From NCBI GenBank assembly GCA_947632455.1, contig CANRPK010000009.1:1-41184 (forward strand): a DNA stretch of 41,184 nucleotides, read 5' to 3'. Of this stretch, positions 30,401 to 32,295 are shown piece after piece. Position numbers and translations under genes: made by a program. This DNA is from an uncultured Bacilli bacterium (GTDB lineage Bacteria > Bacillota_I > Bacilli_A > RF39 > UBA660). A model generated the notes under the pieces. The model made no database searches. It saw only the letters and a program-made list of their open reading frames with translations, and was not told the origin of the DNA. Within the stretch, counting starts at the first letter, position 1. The number at the start of each line of letters is the position of its first letter.

Positions 30401-30704
30401 TTGAATATTTTAAAGGATTTGATTATAATAATTTTGGTTAATCTAAAAAATCGGATGGTTTTCTCCGATTCGCTATTATATCACTGGTAGCAATGCTGAT
30501 GTGTTCGATGTGTGGGGTGATGGCACCCTCAACGCTGCGGGCGTGAATGGCCTTGCTGGTGTGCGTCCAATATCCTTTAAACTTATTATTTGGTTAAGGC
30601 TAGATATAGAAGAACTAGGATACAAGATTAATCAAAGGATTGTCCTAAATATTTAGTACTGATGCATTTTTTTCAAGAATTGAATGCTATAACAGTACTT
30701 TTTC
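30401..30704 (+). ncRNA. repeat unit 1 (putative transcript from about 30436)
   Basis: The promoter is TTGAAT (30401-30406), 17 bases, TATAAT (30424-30429). Six bases later GGTTAATCT (30436-30444) can pair with AGATTAATC (30625-30633). The core 30462-30575 reads SPIRYYITGSNADVF, then DVWGDGTLNAAGVNG and GVRPIS. The frame is open from 30447 to a TAG at 30654-30656 but has no start codon. The terminator is AGTACTG (30655-30661) with CAGTACT (30693-30699) plus T's. Confidence 0.65.
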
Positions 30705-30719
30705 TATTTATAAATAATA

Positions 30720-31028
30720 TTGTATATTTTTCAAAAATAATATATAATTTAGATGGTTAGTCTAAATTAGGATCGTTGTCTCCGAATCACTATAATGTCA
30801 CTGATAAGTGGGCTCGCGTGTTCATTGTGCATGTAGATGGCAACCTCAACACTTGGGGCGTGAATAGCACTACTCCTGGTGTGCGTCCAATATCCTTTTA
30901 AAACTCATATATTTGGTTAAGGCTAAATATCGTAGAATTAGGATACAAGATTAGCCAATGGTTTTCCCTAAACAAATGATGCTGATGTTTTAAAATGAAA
31001 TTTTTAAAACTATAACAGCATCTTTTTT
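30720..31028 (+). ncRNA. repeat unit 2 (putative transcript from about 30755)
   Basis: The promoter is TTGTAT (30720-30725), 17 bases, TATAAT (30743-30748). Six bases later GGTTAGTCT (30755-30763) can pair with AGATTAGCC (30948-30956). The core 30779-30895 reads SPNHYNVTDKWARVF, then IVHVDGNLNTWGVNS and GVRPIS. Its frame stops at 30899, and a TTG at 30776 could start a 41-aa peptide. The terminator is GATGCTG (30978-30984) with CAGCATC (31016-31022) plus T's. Confidence 0.65.
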
Positions 31029-31041
31029 AATTTATAAATAG

Positions 31042-31325
31042 TTGTTTATGATTTAGAAATAATATATAATTTAAATGGTTAATCTAAAAATTTACGATTT
31101 AATAAGTATGCTCGCGTGTTCTATGTGCATCCTGATGGCCACCTCGGCACTGCGGGCGTAGGAGATACTCGCATTGGTGTGCGTCCAATATCCTTTAAAC
31201 TTATTATTTGGTTAAGGCTAAATATTGAAGAATTAGGATACAAGATTAATCGAAGGGTTATCCTAAATATTTGATGTTGATGGATCTTTTCAGGCATTAG
31301 GGACTATAACAACATCTTTTTTTAT
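31042..31325 (+). ncRNA. repeat unit 3 (putative transcript from about 31077)
   Basis: The promoter is TTGTTT (31042-31047), 17 bases, TATAAT (31065-31070). Six bases later GGTTAATCT (31077-31085) can pair with AGATTAATC (31243-31251). The core 31101-31193 reads NKYARVFYVHPDG, then HLGTAGVGDTRIGVRPIS. The frame is open to a TGA at 31272 but has no start codon. It lacks the SP segment of units 1 and 2. The terminator is GATGTTG (31273-31279) with CAACATC (31310-31316) plus T's. Confidence 0.65.
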
Positions 31326-31349: not shown

Positions 31350-31805
31350 ATGAAAAAGGGATTTGCACTTTTAGAAACATTAATTGTAATATCTTTTTTA
31401 GCAGTATCATTATTACTTTTATACAATACTTTTATAGATGTGAGAAGAAATGCTAAGAAAAATTATTTATATGATGATGTAGCAAATATATATAAAACTT
31501 ATTATATAAAAGAATATTTAGAAAAAAATGGGTTAAGTGATTACTTTAATAATAAAGATATTCAAAAGGTGGTAATTAATAATGATGGATTTAATGAGTT
31601 TATAACTAATTTAAATGTTACTAATATTTATTTAGTTAAGTATGATTTAAAAGAATATAATGAGAACTTATATTCTTTAGAATTTAATGATTATTTTGAT
31701 AATTTAGCGATTGATGAAGATTATGATTATCGATTAATTATAGAATATAAAATAGATAATAATAGTTTTTTTGCTAATATAGGGTTAGGTGATAATGATG
31801 AATAA
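31350..31805 (+). CDS. prepilin-like protein (151 aa)
   Basis: The N-terminus KKGFALLETLIVISFLAVSLL is a type IV prepilin/pseudopilin signal: cleavage after Gly4, Glu at mature position 5, then a hydrophobic helix. The rest is polar and acidic (YIKEYLEKNGLSDYFNNKDI) with no known domain. Such proteins build pili or competence pseudopili. No prepilin peptidase, ATPase or platform gene is present in this window. It overlaps the next prepilin gene by eight bases. Confidence 0.78.
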   Translation: MKKGFALLETLIVISFLAVSLLLLYNTFIDVRRNAKKNYLYDDVANIYKTYYIKEYLEKNGLSDYFNNKDIQKVVINNDGFNEFITNLNVTNIYLVKYDLKEYNENLYSLEFNDYFDNLAIDEDYDYRLIIEYKIDNNSFFANIGLGDNDE

Positions 31806-32295
31806 AAGGGGTATTACAATCATTGAACTTTTAGCTAGTATATTTCTTATAGCAATAGTAAGTTTATTACTATTTAGAGTATGTTTTAATTTATTAGAAA
31901 TTAATAATGATAATTCTTATGCTTCAAAAGATGAAATTAGTAGAACAACAATTATTAAGAATATTGAAAGTGATTTTTTGGAAAATAAGTTTATTGGTTT
32001 AAATATTCAAAAAGGGGAAAAACAAACTAAAATAGAAGTAGAATATGATACAGGTAAAGAAAATATTATAATTTCCAAAGATAAATTAACTTATAAAGAT
32101 ACTTATATTTTAGAAACCAAAGGGGCTTCTTATGATTTAGATCCGATTATAAATTATGTTGATTTAGATAATGATTATTATTTAATTACGATTAAAATAA
32201 AAGTATTAATGAATAATAAAAATGATACAGAAAAAGATGATATTGATATTACATATATAGGACTTAAAGAAGATAATGATTACTTTAAAAGATAA
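31798..32295 (+). CDS. second prepilin-like protein (165 aa)
   Basis: MNKRGITIIELLASIFLIAIVS is again a prepilin signal (cleavage after Gly5, Glu at mature position 5). The soluble part (KIEVEYDTGKENIIISKDKLTYKDTYILETKG) resembles ComGF/GspJ-like minor pseudopilins, but the match is loose. The ATG at 31798 is four bases after AGGTGAT. Its 3' end overlaps the convergent ylbJ by 11 bases. It is co-transcribed with the first prepilin gene. Confidence 0.78.
   Translation: MNKRGITIIELLASIFLIAIVSLLLFRVCFNLLEINNDNSYASKDEISRTTIIKNIESDFLENKFIGLNIQKGEKQTKIEVEYDTGKENIIISKDKLTYKDTYILETKGASYDLDPIINYVDLDNDYYLITIKIKVLMNNKNDTEKDDIDITYIGLKEDNDYFKR

Follow-up and report, generated by a model that had tools for sequence, protein, structure and literature searches.

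A tandem array of three similar units, located at positions 30401-31325 of a 41,184-nucleotide stretch of DNA from an uncultured Bacilli bacterium (contig CANRPK010000009.1; the whole stretch is hereafter called the window), raises the question of which kind of RNA these units may encode and how their variable parts relate to the rest of the genome. A first-pass annotation of the sequence had described three tandem promoter-core-terminator units, and this layout, its exact spacing and a shared 21-base block are borne out by the sequence and by a shuffle test.

Results

Three tandem units with the layout of RNA genes

Each unit (249-276 nt) displays, in the same order, TTGNNT-17-TATAAT-6-GGTTARTCT, a variable core of ~90-110 bases ending in the 21-base block GGTGTGCGTCCAATATCCTTT, a conserved tail and a terminator (hairpin, then T). 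The 5' strand of a stem, P1, begins six nucleotides after the -10 box. The 21-base block is identical in the three units and its first 18 bases have three exact occurrences, compared to 0.00 expected from shuffles. The core of unit 3 is truncated at its 5' end. The corresponding features are listed below (TR, template repeat).

30401..30429, + strand: promoter of unit 1, TTGAAT-17-TATAAT (sequence; scan 10/12; spacing kept across the genus)
30436..30706, + strand: unit 1, putative TR RNA gene (covariance model, 107.3 bits; alignment and pair counts), with P1 5' strand GGTTAATCT at 30436-30444, TR core at ~30462-30569, P1 3' strand at 30625-30633 and terminator at ~30656-30704
30558..30578, + strand: 21-base block of unit 1, at the 3' end of the core (IMH*-like position and 5' strand of helix P2)
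30720..30748, + strand: promoter of unit 2, TTGTAT-17-TATAAT (sequence; conserved position)
30755..31030, + strand: unit 2, putative RNA gene (119.5 bits; single-sequence folding gives P1, P2, P3 and terminator), with P1 5' strand GGTTAGTCT at 30755-30763 pairing with 30948-30956, TR core at ~30779-30889 and terminator at ~30978-31028
30878..30898, + strand: 21-base block of unit 2 (sequence, shuffle test)
31042..31070, + strand: promoter of unit 3, TTGTTT-17-TATAAT (sequence; conserved position)
31077..31325, + strand: unit 3, putative RNA gene (111.2 bits; alignment), with P1 5' strand GGTTAATCT at 31077-31085 pairing with 31243-31251, core homology from ~31098 to 31187 and terminator at ~31273-31323
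31176..31196, + strand: 21-base block of unit 3 (sequence, shuffle test)

Using a generic promoter scan at threshold, only the unit 1 promoter was recovered out of the three, and a generic terminator scan returned 0/3 terminators, the stems being A+T-rich and the loops longer than the scan allows. Much stronger than these generic scans is the comparative evidence: the terminator stem covaries (see below), and an exact TATAAT is positioned 6 or 7 nt upstream of the GG that opens P1 in 42/66 units from many genomes, so that the start of P1 should lie at about +1. The units accordingly have the appearance of separately transcribed RNAs, each presumably produced from its own promoter. Directly 3' of unit 3 (31350-32295), the window contains two overlapping prepilin-like ORFs, the second of which carries an N-methylation motif.

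A covarying RNA structure encloses the core

The P1 closing stem brackets the template core, GGTTAATCT pairing with AGATTAATC across it: 589/594 P1 positions are paired in 66 units from many genomes, a value reached in 0/5000 shuffles. In a 48-sequence alignment, four helices (P1, P2, P3 and the terminator as helix 4) covary, with 97.8% paired cells compared to 92.1% after shuffling, 16 pairs changed on both sides, and 94 double-change cells compared to 26.4. On any pairing measure, 0/500 shuffles matched the observed values, and slid-helix controls were only 29-45% paired. Folding of unit 2 alone yields the same helices as those defined by covariation. A structured RNA region with covarying helices is therefore present 3' of the TR, and the earlier proposal that the units, with their conserved flanks, are not random remnants is well founded.

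The cores recur in a dispersed family of target genes

Translated in frame, the cores read ...VFxVxxDGxL...GVRPISF and are directly followed by a stop, with neither a start codon nor an open frame upstream; a reading of the units as small coding genes was rejected on these grounds. The core sequence recurs in coding genes of the window's genome; there, GTAGTTAATCTGAA comes next, in place of the ATATCC found in the units. Unit-gene homology ends at GTGCGTCCA, and the flanks are common to the units only. The cores are thus variable, as described in the first-pass annotation, but not arbitrary, since they consist of variable-region (VR) sequence homologous to coding genes elsewhere in the genome.

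When a single target protein was used as query, more than 30 target paralogues of ~500 aa were detected, dispersed over many contigs of this genome, with the VR close to the C-terminus and a hydrophobic, probably membrane-anchoring N-terminus; we infer a surface location and role for these proteins. The AlphaFold model of a target (pLDDT 44) is too low in confidence for a C-type lectin fold to be read from it, DUF6273 matches are sub-threshold only, and a solved-structure search with the target domain gave no match. Core-to-core variation lies on AAY-type codons, and such variation of cores and coding paralogues is, as judged from sequence, the signature of a diversity-generating retroelement (DGR).

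The RT operon lacks a template of its own

A 12 kb contig of the same genome (C29) encodes a reverse transcriptase (RT; RVT_1, E 2.6e-20), an Avd-like protein (bAvd, E 3e-9; DivGenRetAVD, E 8e-9; both below curated cut-offs) and a small ORF matching MutS domain I (MutS_I-like). The operon order MutS-like, Avd, RT is kept in relatives, and the gap of ~26 nt between MutS-like and Avd leaves no room for a template there. The MutS domain I ORF (L047:4464-4886), which is always found directly upstream of Avd, resembles a mismatch-recognition-like accessory protein.

Self-comparison of C29 revealed no template/variable pair, and the unit motif is absent from this contig and from 21 related RT contigs; the window's genome was accordingly judged to have no TR next to this RT. 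By the same self-comparison, an ordinary template was found beside the RT in five more distant DGRs of the same genus or family, and in the clearest of these 8/8, 14/14 and 20/21 mismatches fell on template adenines (read as T in minus-strand DGRs), indicating that the method detects a cis template where one is present. Three short contigs of the bin, apparently richer in G+C, carry other RTs (L048 on C90, L046 on C36 and L049 on C64), C90 together with its own asparagine-rich template-like ORF; these contigs are probably binning contaminants.

The same RNA is found as a cis template in other genera

A covariance-model search of related genomes had been proposed in the first-pass annotation. 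With a model built on the unit tails (R1), 385 genomes of the order were scanned; outside the genus, it matched ~20 copies in each of two g54 genomes and single or few weaker loci (E 1e-6 to 1e-3) in other genera. Among twelve weaker loci inspected, 10/12 have an RT, a MutS-like ORF or both within a few kb, the remaining two (L248, L249) being near contig ends, and an adenine-rich core lies directly 5' of the R1 match in most of the twelve (none in L253, atypical in L247). At these cis loci, TR-to-VR mismatches relative to neighbouring targets fall on TR adenines in 23/23, 17/18, 15/16, 16/16, 22/28, 13/15 and 7/7 cases.

The search thus returned the same RNA as a cis TR beside the DGR operon in other genera, and the 'unknown type' of the first-pass annotation gives way to homology with DGR template-repeat RNA. 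Each of the R1 matches in other genera is weak by itself, but their location beside the operon and at the template end is an independent confirmation of this homology. We therefore regard the RNA with high confidence as the template RNA of this DGR lineage, which appears to have been detached and amplified in the window's genus.

In G097, one copy is located beside the operon (L256) and the others are dispersed. Tandem TR-like series in cis beside MutS-like/Avd/RT were observed in two other genera (L247:4460-5560 and L261:2880-3930); differences among their copies are mostly without adenine bias, and a possible interpretation is that these series represent an intermediate stage.

Probable adenine-directed transfer from units to genes

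In G015 (99% complete), 18 coding VRs caught by pattern, a subset of all those present, were each paired with the most similar unit. Mismatches affected 249/535 unit adenines (47%) compared to 257/1202 other bases (21%; p 1.7e-25 in a Fisher test that assumes independent sites although some units and genes are related), and no bias was seen when counting from the coding side (0.28 vs 0.29). This adenine asymmetry, restricted to the unit side, supports the view that units are donors and coding VRs recipients in G015.

In the window's genome, the pattern is near-symmetric, with 0.46 vs 0.29 from the unit side and 0.45 vs 0.29 from the coding side for all pairs, and 0.48/0.21 and 0.37/0.24, respectively, for the 14 best pairs. 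The unit cores are adenine-poor here (20.8%, compared to 20.5% in coding variable regions), the directional signal is weaker than in G015, and no unit in this genome matches a VR at all non-A positions. Near-symmetry of this kind would be expected were units and genes alike copies of other templates. An adenine-rich master template could be missing from the window's 126-contig bin.

An alternative reading of these data, which we consider improbable, holds that the units are silent non-coding recipient cassettes fed by a hidden adenine-rich master and serve the targets as a recombination reservoir rather than the RT as templates. Unit cores varying at adenine-type positions, own-genome units no richer in A than coding VRs, and a master template not visible in the assembly would all fit. 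However, the RNAs homologous to the units are, in other genera, bona fide TRs located next to the RT, the G015 asymmetry points solely from unit to coding gene, and the conservation of promoter position, P1 and terminator would not be required of a silent cassette.

Returning to the units as templates, these seem to be rewritten too, as suggested by an adenine signature that is present in the cores and absent from the flanks. In units of relatives, deviation from consensus in the cores is 0.22 at A and 0.107 elsewhere (p 1e-14), compared to 0.156 and 0.157 in the tails; own-genome cores deviate by 0.39 at A and 0.18 elsewhere. Cores are less similar than tails in 53/53 same-genome pairs (tails at least 93% alike). 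In the simplest reading, a unit's core can be overwritten by cDNA derived from a different unit. Unit-to-unit gene conversion would account for the exchange, but by itself not for the adenine bias.

Copies of the unit in the genome and the genus

The covariance model matches 26 RNAs in the window's genome, of which at least 13 form an array reaching the end of C20, the others being located on C35, C37, as singles elsewhere, and three in the window. Two neighbouring units of the C20 array (L036:8915-9500) are identical over ~300 bases, as after a recent tandem duplication, and this array apparently also expands by ordinary duplication.

Counted by hand and with incomplete assemblies included, units are present in 24/24 genomes of the genus that carry this RT or a recognisable remnant of it, and in 8/12 genomes in which no RT of this type was detected, 4/12 having none (chance of this split ~0.008). 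The eight unit-bearing genomes with no detected RT reflect either incomplete assemblies or loss. In G007:C43, G010:C50, G026:C6 and G030:C47, the RT gene of this DGR is interrupted by stop codons or broken into pieces, and the same genomes retain units, which makes it likely that in places the RT was lost and the units were left behind. Named relatives are gut Bacilli bins, including Candidatus Caccenecus avistercoris. A phage origin of the units was rejected, given that the 20-base tail motif has no exact match in IMG/VR viral contigs; restricted to exact matching, this is a weak test.

The occurrence in multi-copy tandem arrays, each unit with a promoter and terminator of its own, would also suit another RT-associated or regulatory RNA, such as a retron-like RNA or a mobile element, with a captured variable region. 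So would the lack of any Rfam 15 family at gathering score in the unit region, two tRNAs being the only matches in the whole window. Against such an RNA, which we regard as very improbable, stand the constant position of the TR core within the RNA from copy to copy, the identity of this RNA with the cis TR of sister DGRs, and the lack of exact viral matches mentioned above. Least credible of all, and ruled out by flank conservation and covariation, is an origin of the units as decayed 3' ends (pseudogenes) of target genes amplified by chance, the outcome that the first-pass annotation had named as contradicting its reading if flanks were not conserved: the cores do look like C-terminal portions of target proteins and lack a start codon or upstream open frame, but homology to the genes stops at GTGCGTCCA, the conserved flanks are shared among units alone, and four covarying helices, promoter spacing and presence across the genus all speak against decay.

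Discussion

Taken together, these results very probably identify the three units as genes for the template-repeat RNAs of a trans-acting chromosomal DGR. In the model that we propose, a promoter of its own would drive transcription of each unit, yielding a structured RNA of ~250-280 nt. In this RNA, the P1 stem would start at ~+1 and surround the template, and the core would be followed by a fixed 3' junction, GTGCGYCCAATATCC, base-paired to the downstream domain, and by a terminator hairpin. By homology, the RT-Avd-MutS-like operon (C29) would reverse-transcribe the unit RNAs with errors at adenines, and the cDNA would replace the matching VR near the 3' end of one of the more than 30 dispersed membrane-anchored target genes. 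The template would have left the RT operon and multiplied in this genus, and adenine-specific changes in the core, not in the flanks, suggest that templates may be overwritten by other templates. We give about even chances to a two-tier hypermutation system in this gut bacterium, in which a dispersed, amplified template library serves one RT in trans while its templates are adenine-rewritten by other templates and co-evolve with the targets.

In known DGRs, the RT operon usually contains a single template, which is spared the mutagenesis that it directs. The architecture suggested here, with templates split from the RT, amplified and apparently transcribed alone, appears to be new: in the open-access papers searched, we found no report of standalone amplified TR RNA genes with a TR-less RT operon, nor of templates themselves bearing the adenine signature. 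The earlier statement that the layout matches nothing known holds in part, as the kind of RNA is known (a DGR TR) and its standalone, amplified, RT-distant arrangement appears undescribed.

Self-contained and with defined ends, from the +1 stem to the terminator, each unit may represent a naturally occurring minimal template RNA. A path is suggested that begins in cis (other genera), passes through a mixed stage of cis and dispersed copies (g54) and ends fully in trans (the window's genus). It also becomes possible to test by what means adenines are retained in a template that is open to overwriting. By implication, searches demanding a TR close to the RT will overlook systems of this kind.

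Within the family, the cis-TR DGRs (L244, L245, L246, L250-L252 and L261) share with the units the homologous RNA 3' domain (R1) and the same operon proteins, and the closing stem GGCTAATCT...AAGGTTAGTCC is visible in the cis TRs of L246 and L261. Unlike the units, they mostly have one copy beside the operon, whereas short tandem runs of TR-like copies occur in cis in L247 and L261, and genus g54 differs from the window's genus in having one of its ~20 copies in cis.

The BPP-1 type DGR, summarised as avd-TR-spacer-brt with a structured spacer (PMC12875486), resembles the units' system in the adenine-directed template/variable-region relation, the use of RT and Avd, the fixed-point 3' junction of the TR, the structured RNA 3' of the TR and the VR near the target C-terminus. 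In contrast to this type, the TR considered here lies outside the RT operon: it forms a standalone gene running from promoter to terminator, exists in ~26 copies and has its template enclosed by a P1 stem. Several TRs in one DGR (MetaCSST survey, PMC6642488), targets served in trans (Thiohalocapsa, PMC10907252) and separate transcription of TR and RT (DiGReF, PMC3521204) are each on record, and these DGRs share with the units' system the presence of more than one TR, remote targets and action in trans.
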